Positions 12,390-64,000 of a stretch of 64,000 nt of DNA are shown here, in pieces (position 1 is the first letter of the stretch; every line of letters begins with the position of its first letter). The DNA comes from Ensifer sp. PDNC004. Lineage in GTDB: Bacteria > Pseudomonadota > Alphaproteobacteria > Rhizobiales > Rhizobiaceae. The stretch covers positions 2,976,501 through 3,040,500 of the forward strand of contig NZ_CP070353.1 of the NCBI RefSeq assembly GCF_016919405.1, written 5' to 3'. The notes beneath the pieces are model-generated. The model was given only the letters and a program-made list of their open reading frames with translations. It was not told where the DNA came from and ran no database searches. The position numbers were made by a program, and so were the translations under genes.

Positions 12390-13889
12390 ATGCAGGAGCA
12401 GCCGGACATCGTCATCATCGGGTCGGGGATCGGCGGCTCCACGCTTGCGGCGGGGCTTGCCGGCTCCGGTGCCCGCATCGCCATCCTCGAGCGTGGCGAG
12501 CGCCTGCCCGACACGCCGGAGGCGCGCAGCTACAGTTCGATCTTCGTCAAGGGCCATTTCCGACCGAAGGAGATGTGGCGCGAGCCCGACGGGACCGCGT
12601 TCAATCCGGGCAACTTCTATTTCGTCGGCGGCAATTCCAAGCTCTTCGGCGCGGTGCTTTTGCGCTACCGGGCCGAGGATTTCACCGAGATGCAGCATCT
12701 CGGAGGTGTTTCGCCAGCCTGGCCCTTCCCCTATGAAGAGCTGGAACCGTGGTACGGCAAGGCCGAGCAGCTGTTCGAGGTGCGCGGCGAACTGGGGGAC
12801 GACCCGACGGAACCGTTCCATAGCTCCCCGTATGCTTTCGGCCCGGTGCCGGATGAGCCGGCCATCGCCCGTGCCCGTGCCGAGTTGAAGGCGCAGGGGC
12901 TACATCCGGCGACCTTGCCGCTCGGCGTTGACATCGACACGTGGCTTGCCGGCGGGCGCACGCCCTGGGACGGGTTCCCGAACACCGGCAACGGCAAGAA
13001 GGATGCCGAGACCGCATCGCTCGCCGTCGCGCTGAAGGATCCGAACATCGAGCTGATCACGTCGGCGCATGTCGACACGCTGGAGGCAGGCCCGGGCGGA
13101 CGGATCGAGGCGATCCACTACACGCACAGGGGCGAGAAGAAGAAGCTGTCGCCGAAGCTGGTGATCCTGTCGGCCGGCGCGATCAATTCCGCTGCCATCC
13201 TGTTGCGCTCCGGCGACGGCAAAGGGCTTGCCAACGCCTCCGACCAGGTCGGCCGCAACTTCATGAACCACAATTGCAGCGCCATGCTGGCAATCAACCC
13301 GTTCAAGCGCAACGACAGCATCTACCAGAAAACGCTGATGCTGAACGACTACTACCTGACCGGCGGCCGGGACGGTCTGCCGCTCGGCAACGTCCAGCTT
13401 CTCGGCAAGATCAACGGCGACATCCTGAAGGCCAATGCGCCGGTCTGGGGCCCACGCTTCGCCTTCGACCTCATGGCCGGCCATGCGATCGACTGGTACA
13501 TGATGACGGAGGACCTGCCGAACCCGGAAAGCCGCATCATGGTCGACGGCAAGGGCATCATCATGCAGTGGCGGCGCTCTAACATGGAGGCGCTTTCGAG
13601 TCTTGAAGCGAAAATGCGCGCGCACTTCAAGGCGGCCGGCTATCCGATCGTGCTCTCTCAGCCCTTCGACAAGCGCACGCCGTCGCATCAGTGCGGGACG
13701 GTGCGGATGGGCAAAGACCCGAAGGACGCGCCGCTCGACGTCTATTGCCGCGCCTTCGACCATCCCAACCTCTTTGTCGTCGACGCCGGCTGCCTGCCGA
13801 CATCGGCGGCCGTCAATCCGGCGCTGACGGTTGCTGCCCAGGCGCTCAGGGTCGCCGACCATATCCTTGCGAAGGAGATCCGATCATGA
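12390..13889 (+). CDS. GMC-family FAD-dependent oxidoreductase
   Basis: This 499-residue flavoprotein has the N-terminal FAD dinucleotide fold IVIIGSGIGGSTLAAGL, a GGNSKLFGAVLLR segment, and the C-terminal GMC region with THQCGT-like SHQCGTVRMG. The final NPALTVAAQALR places Asn opposite the catalytic His. There is no signal peptide or twin-arginine motif, so it appears cytoplasmic. GMC enzymes oxidise alcohol groups of sugars, polyols or choline-like compounds. Its position directly after a sugar importer suggests oxidation of the incoming carbohydrate. The final bases overlap the next gene (ATGA). The substrate is not determined. Confidence 0.88.
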   Translation: MQEQPDIVIIGSGIGGSTLAAGLAGSGARIAILERGERLPDTPEARSYSSIFVKGHFRPKEMWREPDGTAFNPGNFYFVGGNSKLFGAVLLRYRAEDFTEMQHLGGVSPAWPFPYEELEPWYGKAEQLFEVRGELGDDPTEPFHSSPYAFGPVPDEPAIARARAELKAQGLHPATLPLGVDIDTWLAGGRTPWDGFPNTGNGKKDAETASLAVALKDPNIELITSAHVDTLEAGPGGRIEAIHYTHRGEKKKLSPKLVILSAGAINSAAILLRSGDGKGLANASDQVGRNFMNHNCSAMLAINPFKRNDSIYQKTLMLNDYYLTGGRDGLPLGNVQLLGKINGDILKANAPVWGPRFAFDLMAGHAIDWYMMTEDLPNPESRIMVDGKGIIMQWRRSNMEALSSLEAKMRAHFKAAGYPIVLSQPFDKRTPSHQCGTVRMGKDPKDAPLDVYCRAFDHPNLFVVDAGCLPTSAAVNPALTVAAQALRVADHILAKEIRS

Positions 13890-59700: not shown

Positions 59701-60426
59701 ATGAGCAGGGTAGCATTGGTCACGGGTGGGTCGCGCGGCATTGGTGCGGCAATTTCCATCGCACTCAAGAATGCCGGCTACAGGGTGGCTGCCAACTATG
59801 CCGGCAATGACGAGAAGGCCCAGGCCTTCAAGCAGGAAACCGGCATCCCGGTCTACAAGTGGGACGTCTCCAACTATCAGGCCTGCGCCGAAGGCATCGC
59901 CAAGGTCGAGGCCGACCTCGGTCCGGTGGACGTGCTGGTCAACAACGCAGGCATCACCCGCGACGCCATGTTCCACAAGATGACGCCGGAACAGTGGGGC
60001 GAGGTGATCGGCACCAACCTCACCGGTCTCTTCAACATGACGCATCCGCTCTGGTCGGCCATGCGCGACCGCGGCTTCGGTCGCGTCATCAACATCTCGT
60101 CGATCAACGGCCAGAAGGGCCAGATGGGCCAGGCCAACTATTCGGCGGCCAAGGCCGGCGATCTCGGCTTCACCAAGGCGCTTGCCCAGGAAGGGGCCGC
60201 CAAGGGCATTACAGTGAACGCGATCTGCCCCGGCTATATCGGTACGGAGATGGTGCTGGCGGTGCCGGAGAAGGTGCTCAACGAGCGCATCATCCCGCAG
60301 ATCCCGGTCGGCCGCCTCGGCGAGCCCGAAGAAATCGCCCGCTGCGTGGTGTTCCTGGCCTCCGACGATGCCGGCTTCATCACCGGTTCGACGATTTCGG
60401 CGAACGGTGGACAGTTTTTCGTTTAA
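59701..60426 (+). CDS. phaB: Acetoacetyl-CoA reductase
   Basis: This 241-residue NADPH-dependent SDR reduces acetoacetyl-CoA to (R)-3-hydroxybutyryl-CoA for PHB synthesis. It has the cofactor motif VTGGSRGIGAAIS, NNAG, and catalytic Tyr147/Lys151 in ANYSAAKAG. TEMV and PVGRLGEPEEIA are typical of PhaB. ATG 59701 follows GGGAGG. The length agrees with PhbB. A UUCG-loop terminator follows. Confidence 0.95.
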   Translation: MSRVALVTGGSRGIGAAISIALKNAGYRVAANYAGNDEKAQAFKQETGIPVYKWDVSNYQACAEGIAKVEADLGPVDVLVNNAGITRDAMFHKMTPEQWGEVIGTNLTGLFNMTHPLWSAMRDRGFGRVINISSINGQKGQMGQANYSAAKAGDLGFTKALAQEGAAKGITVNAICPGYIGTEMVLAVPEKVLNERIIPQIPVGRLGEPEEIARCVVFLASDDAGFITGSTISANGGQFFV

Positions 60427-60451
60427 GCATCAGGCAAGCTGAACACCAGCG

Positions 60452-60476
60452 AACGGCGCCTTTCGAGGCGCCGTTT
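60452..60476 (+). terminator. Rho-independent terminator of phaB
   Basis: AACGGCGCCT (60452-60461) and AGGCGCCGTT (60466-60475) form a perfect 10-bp stem with a TTCG tetraloop. It ends in GTTT. Confidence 0.8.
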
Positions 60477-60497
60477 CCATGTGGTGGCGGCGCATGA

Positions 60498-60898
60498 GAA
60501 TCCTGCTCGAAATCCTGAAGTTGCGCCGGCAGTTCCGTTGCCGGGGCGGTGCGTAGACACTATATCTTGTGGAGAACAAAGGTGGAATGACGCGCGGTCT
60601 GCGAGTCGCTGCCGAATGTTCCCGCACCGGTCGCGACTCCGAACTGCGATTCTCATTCTCTCGCTTGGGTGAATCCCTGACGAATTTCGTGAAAAAAATT
60701 CCAGGCTTTCCAGAGTCTTGGATTCGGAATCCTTGGGCCTGTGAGGCAAAGGGAGAGCCGGGATTATTGTGCGCCCAAGCGCCTGATGGGCGGAATCATT
60801 GCCAGATTCAGCATGTGGTGCAACGTTCGGTGTTGAAATCTATATGTAGTCGTGAACATACAGTGAATCACAATGAGTCGTCGATTCGTCGCCGATTC
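60498..60898. promoter_or_regulatory. Dense cluster of GANTC (CcrM) sites in a 636-bp intergenic region
   Basis: Fourteen GANTC pentamers lie at 60498, 60603, 60635, 60648, 60671, 60713, 60721, 60727, 60793, 60805, 60865, 60875, 60883 and 60894. About 1-2 would be expected from base composition. They include a perfect 13-bp palindrome GGATTCGGAATCC (60720-60732), a GAATC-N7-GATTC pair (60793-60809) and a repeat CGATTCGT 11 bp apart (60882 and 60893). TGTGGAGAA (60568-60576) is one base from a DnaA box. No supported gene occupies 60427-61062. A hairpin CAGCGT/ACGCTG (61032-61049) lies next to the helicase start. Confidence 0.75.
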
Positions 60899-61062
60899 GT
60901 TCCACGGCTGTTCCAATTGTCGATTGCGCCGACCACAACAGGTGGTGCAATGGGCTGAGAGATGCCAAGCGATGGTTTTAGTTGTCTGCGCCCCTTGCGT
61001 TTGGCTCGGTGCGTGGGCATGTGTTTGCCGCCAGCGTGAAAAGACGCTGCCGTAATTTCTGA

Positions 61063-64000
61063 ATGCCCGGGATCGATGACGTGTCCGTTCACCCCATGAT
61101 CCTGAGCGGCCGCGGCGTCACCGCGGTGCTCGGGCCCACCAATACCGGCAAGACGCATTACGCGATCGAGCGCATGATTGCGCACGACAGCGGCGTCATC
61201 GGCCTGCCGCTGCGCCTCTTGGCGCGCGAGGTCTATACGCGCCTGGTCGAAAGGGTCGGCCATCACAACGTCGCGCTGATCACCGGCGAGGAAAAGATCA
61301 CGCCGCACCGGGCGCGCTATTCGGTCTGCACCGTCGAAGCCATGCCGCGCGAGACGACGGCCTCCTTCGTGGCGATCGATGAAGTGCAGCTTGCCGGGGA
61401 TCTCGAGCGCGGCCACATCTTTACCGACCGGATCCTGCACCTGCGCGGCCGCGGCGAGACGCTGCTGCTCGGTGCCGGGACGATGCGGCCGATCCTCGAG
61501 CAATTGCTGCCCGGCATCACCGTGGTCGAGCGGCCGCGCATGTCGCAGCTGCTCTATGCCGGCTCGAAGAAGATCACCCGCCTGCCGCATCGCACGGCAA
61601 TCGTCGCCTTCTCGGCCGACGAAGTCTATGCGATCGCCGAGCTGATCCGCCGGCAGCGCGGCGGTGCCGCCGTCGTTCTCGGCGCGCTGTCGCCGCGCAC
61701 GCGCAATGCCCAGGTGGCGCTCTACCAGGAAGGCGACGTCGAATACCTGGTCGCGACCGACGCGATCGGCATGGGGCTCAATCTCGACGTCGACCATGTC
61801 GCCTTTGCGCAGGACCGCAAGTTCGACGGCTATCAGTTCCGCAATCTCAATCCGGCCGAGCTTGCGCAGATCGCCGGCCGCGCCGGTCGGCATTTGCGCG
61901 ACGGTACGTTCGGGGTGACCGGCCGCGTCGATCCCTTCGACAACGAACTCGTCCATCGCATCGAGGCGCATGAGTTCGATCCGGTGAAGGTGCTGCAGTG
62001 GCGCTCGAAGGCTTTCGATTACGCTTCTATCGCCGCTCTGAAGAAGAGTCTTGAGGCCGCGCCGACGGTTCCCGGCCTTGCCCGGGCGCTACCTGCGGTA
62101 GACCAGCAGGCATTCGAGCATTTGGCCCGCTATCCCGAGGTCGTCGACATAACGACCAATGCCGAGCGGGTGGAAAAACTGTGGGAAGCCTGCGCGCTGC
62201 CGGACTATCGGCGCATTACACCGGCTCAACATGCCGACTTGATCTCGACGATCTACGCGGATCTTGTCCGCCGCGGTACCGTAAACGAAGATTTCATGGC
62301 CGAGCAGGTCAGGCGTGCCGATCATACGGACGGTGAGATCGACACACTTTCGGCGCGAATCGCGCAGATCAGGACATGGACTTATGTGTCGAACCGGCCC
62401 GGATGGCTGGCCGATCCGACACACTGGCAAGAAAAGACGCGGGAAATTGAAGATCGATTATCCGACGCACTACATGAACGGTTGACGAAACGCTTTGTTG
62501 ATCGCAGGACATCTGTGCTCATGAAGCGCCTGAGAGAGAATGCTATGCTGGAAGCTGAAATCAGTGTGAATGGTGATGTCTTCGTCGAAGGACACCACGT
62601 AGGACAACTAACCGGTTTCCGGTTTACGCTGGCGACCGGCGGCGATGGCCCGGATGCCAAGGCTGTGCAGGGTGCTGCCCAGAAGGCGCTGGCGCTCGAG
62701 TTCGAAGCACGCGCCGCGCGGCTGCATGCTTCCGGCAACAACGACCTGGCGCTTTCGTCGGATGGTCTGGTGCGCTGGCTCGGCGATCCCGTCGCCCGTC
62801 TGACGGCAAGCGACCACGTCATGCGCCCGCGCGTCATCCTTCTGGCCGACGATCAGCTGCAGGCGAACGCCCGCGAGCATGTTCTGGCGCGCATCGAGCG
62901 TTTCGTGAACCATCACATCGGCACGGTCTTGAAGCCGCTCGACGATATCTCGCGCGCCGAGGATCTCGAAGGTCTTGCCAAGGGCCTCGCTTTCCAGCTC
63001 GTCGAGAACCTCGGCGTGCTCTTCCGCCGCGATGTCGCAGACGACGTCAAGTCGCTGGACCAGGACGGCCGCGCTTCGATCCGCAAGTACGGCGTTCGCT
63101 TCGGCGCCTACCACATCTTCCTGCCGGCGCTGCTGAAGCCGGCTCCGGCCGAACTCATCACGCTCCTCTGGGCGCTGAAGAACGACGGCCTCGACAAGCC
63201 CGGCTATGGCGACCTCATCCCGATGCTCGCTGCCGGCCGGACGTCTGTCGTTACCGATCCGTCCTTCGAGCGGACCTTCTACAAGCTGGCCGGTTTCCGC
63301 TTCCTCGGAAAGCGTGCGGTGCGCATCGATATCCTCGAGCGCCTCGCCGATCTCATCCGGCCGCTCCTGCAGTGGAAGCCAGGCACGCAGCCGCGTCCGG
63401 AAGGCGCCTATGACGGTCGTCGCTTCACCGCGACCACCTCGATGCTCTCGATCCTCGGCGCGACGCCCGACGACATGGAAGAGATCCTGAAGGGCCTCGG
63501 CTACCGTGCAGACAGCGTCAAGGCCGAGGAGGCCCAGGCCTTCCTCGCTGGCCAGGATGGCGGTGCTGCCGTTGCTGCCGCCGCTTCCGAGCCGGTTTCT
63601 GCCGTCGATGATGTCGATGCCGGCGACAGTGCAGCTGAAGGCGAGACTGCAGTCGTCGAGGCGCCTGCCGCGGAAGGCGAGAAGCCCGAAGCTGACGTTT
63701 CCGTCGAAGCCCAGCCTGCTGAGGCCCAGGCGACTGAGACCCAAGTTACGGACACCGGTGAGCCGGTAGAAGCCAAGCCCGTTCTGCTCTGGCGTCCCGG
63801 CACCCGCCAGGACAACCAGCGCCAGGGCGGTGGCCGCCACGAGGGTGAACAGCGTCGCGGCGGTCAGCGCCACGGGCGTGGTCAAGGCCAGGGCCAGGGC
63901 GAAGGACGTGAAGGCGGCCGCAAGAGTGGTCAGCAGACGCGCGGTAAGCGTCATGACGGTGGCAAGCCGGAAGGCGGGCCGCGTCAGGAACGCGGCGATC
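61063..64000 (+). CDS. SUV3-like DNA/RNA helicase (runs off the right edge)
   Basis: The open frame continues to the window end (979 codons) without a stop. It has a superfamily 2 helicase core with Walker A GPTNTGKT (residues 24-31), DEVQ (AIDEVQLAG) and the C-terminal core TDAIGMGLNLDVDHV with QIAGRAGRH. It matches the alphaproteobacterial/mitochondrial SUV3 RNA helicase family. A long middle domain is followed by an Ala/Glu-rich acidic segment and then an Arg/Gly/Gln-rich tail from about residue 915, which suggests RNA binding. The ATG at 61063 has a poor ribosome-binding site, and 61096 is an alternative start. Confidence 0.9.
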   Translation, partial: MPGIDDVSVHPMILSGRGVTAVLGPTNTGKTHYAIERMIAHDSGVIGLPLRLLAREVYTRLVERVGHHNVALITGEEKITPHRARYSVCTVEAMPRETTASFVAIDEVQLAGDLERGHIFTDRILHLRGRGETLLLGAGTMRPILEQLLPGITVVERPRMSQLLYAGSKKITRLPHRTAIVAFSADEVYAIAELIRRQRGGAAVVLGALSPRTRNAQVALYQEGDVEYLVATDAIGMGLNLDVDHVAFAQDRKFDGYQFRNLNPAELAQIAGRAGRHLRDGTFGVTGRVDPFDNELVHRIEAHEFDPVKVLQWRSKAFDYASIAALKKSLEAAPTVPGLARALPAVDQQAFEHLARYPEVVDITTNAERVEKLWEACALPDYRRITPAQHADLISTIYADLVRRGTVNEDFMAEQVRRADHTDGEIDTLSARIAQIRTWTYVSNRPGWLADPTHWQEKTREIEDRLSDALHERLTKRFVDRRTSVLMKRLRENAMLEAEISVNGDVFVEGHHVGQLTGFRFTLATGGDGPDAKAVQGAAQKALALEFEARAARLHASGNNDLALSSDGLVRWLGDPVARLTASDHVMRPRVILLADDQLQANAREHVLARIERFVNHHIGTVLKPLDDISRAEDLEGLAKGLAFQLVENLGVLFRRDVADDVKSLDQDGRASIRKYGVRFGAYHIFLPALLKPAPAELITLLWALKNDGLDKPGYGDLIPMLAAGRTSVVTDPSFERTFYKLAGFRFLGKRAVRIDILERLADLIRPLLQWKPGTQPRPEGAYDGRRFTATTSMLSILGATPDDMEEILKGLGYRADSVKAEEAQAFLAGQDGGAAVAAAASEPVSAVDDVDAGDSAAEGETAVVEAPAAEGEKPEADVSVEAQPAEAQATETQVTDTGEPVEAKPVLLWRPGTRQDNQRQGGGRHEGEQRRGGQRHGRGQGQGQGEGREGGRKSGQQTRGKRHDGGKPEGGPRQERGD

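Follow-up and report, generated by a model that had tools for sequence, protein, structure and literature searches.

An array of fourteen GANTC (CcrM) sites is found at 60498..60898 of the window, the 64-kb stretch of DNA from Ensifer sp. PDNC004 that was analysed here, and this array is real, rare and conserved. Sequence comparison suggests a control region that is under selection and timed by methylation rather than a product of chance, since the dense packing is retained in many related bacteria although the intervening DNA differs. With a probability of about 0.5, it is considered as the methylation-timed (by CcrM, probably with GcrA), and perhaps NrdR-controlled, cis-regulatory region of an operon for a Suv3-like helicase. 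What is new is a repeated element, which carries NrdR-like boxes, and the phased array seen in the genus g41.

The sites start at 60498, 60603, 60635, 60648, 60671, 60713, 60721, 60727, 60793, 60805, 60865, 60875, 60883 and 60894, so that the count of fourteen in 401 bp given by the first-pass annotation was borne out, as were the pairs it had named, i.e., GGATTCGGAATCC at 60720-60732, GAATC-N7-GATTC at 60793-60809, and CGATTCGT at 60882 and 60893. The whole window contains 63 GANTC sites, and its second-densest 401 bp holds 3. The background was taken from 40 stretches of 20 kb together with the window, which amount to 864 kb of the 6.78-Mb genome and contain 802 GANTC sites (0.93 per kb, or 0.37 per 400 bp); the one to two sites previously expected by chance were thus too generous. 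In the density scan of this 864-kb sample, 14 sites in about 400 bp were reached at the array locus and 6 at the runner-up place. No similar cluster was present elsewhere in the sample, and the array was recovered in 16 of 16 same-genus genomes, the reverse of what had been named in advance as counting against it.

The array occupies the intergenic region 60427..61062. It is preceded by a plus-strand ORF (59701..60426) for an acetoacetyl-CoA reductase-like SDR, syntenic in relatives, which we take to be phaB, and followed by the plus-strand Suv3-like RNA helicase gene (61063..63999; Pfam DEXQc_Suv3, 6.6e-26; 1024 aa), whose ORF continues past the window end. The genes after the helicase were named by reading of the ORFs as S4-domain, ferredoxin and CarD-like genes. 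The S. meliloti orthologue of this helicase is presumably SMc03877 (mgpS). In the portion of PMC4941405 available, SMc03877 is named mgpS and described as an RNA helicase raised under acid stress. Two plus-strand blocks conserved throughout the genus were recognized by alignment inside the array, namely GCGATTCTCATTCTC (60646..60660), whose single GANTC site occurs in 16/16 genomes, and CCAGAGTCTTGGATTCnGAATCC (60710..60732), whose three sites each occur in 16/16. At the 60713 site, GACTC is found in S. meliloti 4H41 where the 16 aligned genomes have GAGTC. Strong conservation in the genus was also observed just before the helicase at 60974-61035 (GTTTTAGTTG...GCATGTGTTTGCCGCC), a stretch that perhaps represents the helicase promoter or leader, and a hairpin-like inverted repeat followed by T was noticed by eye after phaB at 60453-60476, which is probably the phaB terminator. 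No canonical sigma70-like promoter was found at the array locus. A short ORF seemed unlikely in view of the indels in the genus alignment.

Approximately half of the array sites lie in or beside two copies of an element of about 85 bp, which is common to much of the Hyphomicrobiales and occurs in 1-4 copies, mostly tandem and mostly 200-283 bp apart, further in a few loci. Its consensus is CNANATNTNG-GTGAACAAA-GAA(TC)-GAGTC-AGC-GATTCG-N5-GATTCGTTC-N7-GTTCC-N5-TTAA, in which YGATTCG forms the heart and the left end is a palindrome resembling NrdR boxes. Both copies in the window are on the plus strand: the distal, degenerate copy 1 (60557-60635) was detected by model R1 at 35.5 bits (E 3.2e-9 in 864 kb), and the proximal, strongest copy 2 (60837-60924), itself one of the 58 copies from which R1 was built, at 69.6 bits (E 7.3e-20 in 864 kb), the sole further match in this sample having E 0.064. 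Throughout the 61 genomes searched, the strong matches (E below 1e-3) of Rhizobiaceae are all located at the helicase locus, G020 apart. The core of copy 2, GAATC-N5-GAGTC-N3-GATTC-N6-GATTC (60865..60898, plus strand), harbors three sites (60874-60880, 60882-60888 and 60893-60899) of the form YGAKTCG, which is the extended GcrA motif according to the accessible text of PMC7987155. The inner site YGATTCG, which fits this motif, is preserved in 87/87 regex-anchored proximal copies, where the anchor forces GA_TC and only Y, T and G are free evidence, and in 95/95 proximal and 51/54 distal copies found by matrix. The regex anchor picked up a copy in 91/107 upstream regions, four of which were dropped (L033, L054 and L065 for a shifted register, L058 for a picked distal copy).

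Two other identities of the element were considered and rejected. GTTC-N7-GTTC is literally present and conserved in the proximal copies, and a LexA/SOS operator was examined with a matrix built from lexA's own operators only, by which 25 lexA promoters reach at least 19 (mean 30.8) and the element arms have a median of 2.7 or less. A structured RNA or an intrinsically terminated small RNA was likewise discarded, as no consensus structure was obtained from 58 copies and terminators were predicted in 1/135 copies, against 1 in shuffles.

The distribution of the array was surveyed in this genome and 60 others, 15 of the same genus and 21 of other genera of the same family. The region search returned a match between phaB and the same helicase in 15/15 same-genus relatives as well as this genome, and in these 16 genomes the peak density before the helicase is 12-16 GANTC sites in 400 bp. 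Of the 21 family members outside the genus, 11 were matched (3-12 GANTC per 400 bp); three unmatched ones (G023, G032 and G036) possess the element as found by the model, with 4-5 GANTC, while five (G016, G019, G024, G025 and G035) carry the helicase without the element. Two elements located elsewhere, with no helicase detected and no GANTC cluster, were observed in G020, and neither helicase nor element was detected in G021. Eighty named loci were also fetched via the helicase. Among these best 80 of at least 584 relatives, 59 show at least 6 GANTC per 400 bp ahead of the helicase, in line with the conservation the first-pass annotation had put up for checking; the element was present in 63 and the element together with the cluster in 58, and in none did the flanks exceed 4 GANTC per 400 bp. 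Loci of Aureimonas (4), Fulvimarina, Pseudovibrio and Xanthobacter (2), among others, lack the cluster. In a class-wide sample of 40 loci, hand-picked from the 153 genomes with a match out of 240 searched, at least 6 GANTC per 400 bp were reached in one (L114) and the element was found in 6, including L113 and L114 of the same order.

Several individual loci display unusual arrangements. In two Ciceribacter loci (L041, 1006-2829; L044, 1623-2830), the element copies are 1.1-1.7 kb apart with other genes between them, one copy by phaB and the other by the helicase; in L041, a hydrolase-like ORF on the opposite strand intervenes, as judged by eye. A 2.0-Mb genome without a detectable helicase has kept two elements (L156, 3065-3147 on the minus strand and 13785-13868 on the plus strand). 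Their neighbours are a DFP-domain gene and an Abi_2-like gene, and visual inspection showed a second NrdR-like box some 30-31 bp upstream of each element. In a 1.4-Mb genome (L161, 2377-2464; 31% G+C in the stretch), the core element is situated just upstream of the helicase with one GANTC left.

The genus g41 (12 genomes) separates the element from the array. Its core module is located upstream of the helicase in 11 genomes, downstream of aceE in 9, where the element array sits between convergent genes, and in the interval from leuA to an EamA gene in the 7 checked, including G055 (copies used in model training). Nevertheless, 9-15 GANTC per 400 bp are reached at the helicase only, in comparison with 1-4 at the aceE and leuA places. 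GANTC is hardly enriched in L154 (2903-3673, minus strand), in which tandem copies of the module separate an RNase T2-like gene from aceE, or in L155 (1898-1965, minus strand), in which it lies between leuA and EamA, close to rpsT. The restriction of dense GANTC to the helicase in g41, together with the lack of a cluster in the helicase-less G020, indicates that the density of CcrM sites follows the helicase and that the core element can stand alone; by the same token, the elements of G020 and the aceE array of g41 imply that the core element is not solely a helicase promoter.

Whether the CcrM site itself is conserved was approached through base variation. In the genus alignment of 16 genomes, variation was 0.20 at N against a background of 0.23, and 0.13, 0.13, 0.09 and 0.10 at G, A, T and C, while in the 11 helicase loci of g41 it was 0.05-0.11 at the GANTC positions and 0.11 at N against a background of 0.31, with switches at N of A/G, C/A and C/T; both counts choose sites for being GANTC, which lowers the variation of the four fixed bases compared with N. 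Since such a choice favours low variation at these four bases, all 256 ABNCD patterns were compared, a site being counted as kept when present in at least half of the genomes. Upstream of the core in g41, GANTC ranked first with 7 kept and 4 N-switching sites, as against 2 and 2 for the next patterns; among the same-genus genomes with the elements left out, it was again first with 6 kept and 2 N-switching sites, as against 4 and 1, the N-switch margin being narrow here. That GANTC is the most conserved and the most N-switching of the 256 patterns suggests that selection acts on the CcrM site itself.

Sites outside the elements are unevenly distributed among lineages. Compared with the numbers expected from shuffles, 129 versus 29.1 were counted in Sinorhizobium/Ensifer (18 genomes, 4.4-fold), 67 versus 26.1 in Bradyrhizobium (12 genomes, 2.6-fold) and 63 versus 25.1 in g41 (11 genomes, 2.5-fold), while the excess was small or nil in other Rhizobiaceae (24 genomes, 38 versus 28.0), the Mesorhizobium/Brucella group (16 genomes, 18 versus 16.9) and the rest (21 genomes, 51 versus 32.8), the genomes within each group being related and their counts not independent. 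This wider count replaced one over a narrower region without the Bradyrhizobium block, which had given 64 versus 13 in the genus and 72 versus 81 elsewhere. About two element copies each occur in low-excess groups (48 in the 24 other Rhizobiaceae, 31 in the 16 genomes of the Mesorhizobium/Brucella group) and about one recognised copy each in Bradyrhizobium and g41, and the mean number of GANTC sites per region is 7-14 across the groups. Bradyrhizobium possesses a block of its own, GAATC-N5-GACTC-N6-GATTCtGATTCGACTC, with five GANTC sites in 37 bp, about 140-172 bp before the core GATTCG (L089-L109). In g41, a distant genus, the extra sites are spaced at intervals of 21 bp although the DNA around them has diverged; 10/11 loci had enough sites for a phasing test, and all ten gave R 0.78-0.99 with a simulated p of 0.006 or less, while outside g41 a p of 0.0085 was reached at one locus, L107. 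The helical phasing proposed for the window stands for single pairs and fails for the array as a whole, since phasing of the sites upstream of the core, in a test that covered period 10.5 bp and the region -330..-20, was significant in 0/16 same-genus genomes (simulated p 0.18-0.82).

The left end of the element introduces a putative second regulator. Three NrdR-box-like palindromes were located in the window: that of copy 1 (60557..60572, score 17.2), for which the partner 31 bp upstream is absent (-9.7), and the two of copy 2 (60806..60821, score 7.4; 60837..60852, score 11.8), which are exactly 31 bp apart. The second box at this offset matches 5 or 6 of 6 key bases in 48 of the 68 proximal copies outside Sinorhizobium and Bradyrhizobium, compared with 0-7 at other offsets (-45 to -21), and it is mostly absent or weak in distal copies (7/45). 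The pair at 60806 and 60837 ranks first in the 864-kb sample, outside which the nrdJ promoter falls, with 19.2 versus 12.5 for the next independent pair, on a matrix trained on the ribonucleotide reductase loci of these genomes; the same six-base skeleton had served to select the training pairs, some of which look false. The 15-bp spacer agrees with the 15-17 bp described as best for NrdR boxes in the part of PMC12051234 consulted. NrdR is encoded in 26/28 genomes, and the two without it, G021 and G044, are also without a strong element; across the 28 genomes, all of which encode GcrA with or without the element, the presence of GcrA or NrdR did not track that of the element. The gene downstream is the Suv3-like helicase and not a ribonucleotide reductase, and the available sections of PMC5343134, in which NrdR regulons are described, name no helicase. 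On account of this and of the limits of the training set, NrdR control of the array locus is offered as a prediction.

The methylation-sensitive switch suggested by the first-pass annotation thus gains partial support from comparison, both from the 59 loci among the best 80 of at least 584 and from GANTC being kept while N changes. The GcrA motif YGAKTCG accounts for 4/14 array sites versus 136/739 in the genome sample and is not clearly enriched. That annotation was also incomplete, since many of the sites are parts of the repeated 85-bp element with NrdR-like boxes, which it had missed. In the proposed mechanism, CcrM would methylate the array sites late in the cell cycle, and passage of the replication fork would leave them hemimethylated; many sites together could then provide a sharp window for GcrA-sigma70 at YGAKTCG or for another methylation-sensitive protein, and NrdR at the paired palindromes might add a brake following dNTP supply. 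The regulated unit would be the operon of the helicase and the ensuing S4-domain, ferredoxin and CarD-like genes. A bolder version, which is regarded as unlikely, envisages a dedicated hemimethylation-sensing nucleoprotein platform of the Hyphomicrobiales, whose sites (in g41 on one helix face, every two turns) would count fork passage cooperatively, in a SeqA-like manner with another reader, and which would be merged with NrdR-based dNTP sensing to time the helicase once per cell cycle.

The location of the array invites another explanation, in which the locus is a chromosomal site rather than a promoter and, lying near the origin, would use its dense CcrM sites to titrate or sequester GcrA, CcrM or another hemimethylation reader in the manner of datA, which titrates DnaA. 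Such a site would fit the single strong locus of each Rhizobiaceae genome searched except G020, and also the element kept by G020 without the helicase. We take hemE, which adjoins oriC in Sinorhizobium, as the marker of the origin; it is 108-115 kb from the array in 7/7 same-genus genomes searched, 51 kb in G055 and about 145 kb in R. johnstonii. However, the distance rises to about 433 kb in M. amorphae and about 480-600 kb in G030, G048, G069 and G181, so proximity to the origin may be plain synteny, and in g41 the dense array goes with the helicase; this explanation is judged rather improbable. A reading of the array as the hemE-adjacent oriC itself is not supported, hemE being about 110 kb away, and the caution of the first-pass annotation, which had claimed no origin, was correct. 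It is also conceivable, with a still lower probability, that another protein binds the 11-bp repeats (GATTCG-N5-GATTCGTTC-N7-GTTC) and that the CcrM sites are a by-product. The invariant middle base of the inner GATTCG (87/87), the core module at three g41 loci of which two are without a GANTC cluster, and the nil excess outside elements in the Mesorhizobium/Brucella group would all be accommodated in this way, but GANTC conservation outside the elements beats all 255 other ABNCD patterns, the extra sites of g41 are phased at 21 bp in a diverged spacer, and the extra GANTC blocks differ by lineage.

Tandem small-RNA genes, with each element serving as promoter and RNA start, are very unlikely. 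The 1-4 copies at mostly 200-283 bp would suit such genes, and so would the elements of G020 and those near aceE in g41, which are not followed by a gene on their own strand; against them stand the missing consensus structure and intrinsic terminators noted above and the lack of any Rfam match at gathering score. The least probable of these alternatives is a shielding site at which MucR or another nucleoid protein keeps the array GANTC unmethylated, although shielding of GANTC sites by MucR is reported for Caulobacter and S. meliloti in the text seen of PMC5172544, and 31-53 GANTC sites per Ensifer strain were repeatedly undetected as methylated according to the part of PMC8725594 available.

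No description of this array was found in the matching passages of the open PMC literature. In the excerpts consulted, GANTC is rare overall, with roughly double the frequency in intergenic DNA, and the CcrM/GcrA targets overlap little between species (PMC8725594), while the motif methylated most evenly in S. meliloti is GANTC (PMC11711589). The density of CcrM sites has been kept across much of an order via sequences that differ between lineages, which strongly recommends the array as a natural candidate for methylation timing of a cooperative kind. Two questions become testable with it, namely whether a multi-site hemimethylation reader exists in Alphaproteobacteria and why an RNA helicase would need one.

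Among known systems, the CcrM/GcrA promoters of Alphaproteobacteria resemble the array in that GANTC lies upstream of a gene and is conserved as GANTC, and in that YGATTCG fits YGAKTCG. To our knowledge, known promoters of this kind depend on a single GANTC site or a few, whereas the array often comprises 6-16 sites per 400 bp, repeated elements and, in one genus, 21-bp phasing. The NrdR box pairs before reductase genes share with it palindromes at a centre distance of 31 bp (15-bp spacer), although here the pair precedes a Suv3-like helicase and is combined with CcrM sites. The oriC of E. coli, whose GATC cluster is read by SeqA, likewise concentrates a large number of methylase sites within several hundred bp as a possible sensor of hemimethylation, while the array is not beside an origin marker. 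Dense CcrM sites have also been described in repABC origin and repE promoter regions, as far as the accessible text of PMC6090056 goes, and these are control regions like the array in this respect; in contrast with them, the array belongs to the large contig and is linked to a helicase gene, and visual inspection of the ORFs at 57.3-64 kb revealed no repABC gene.
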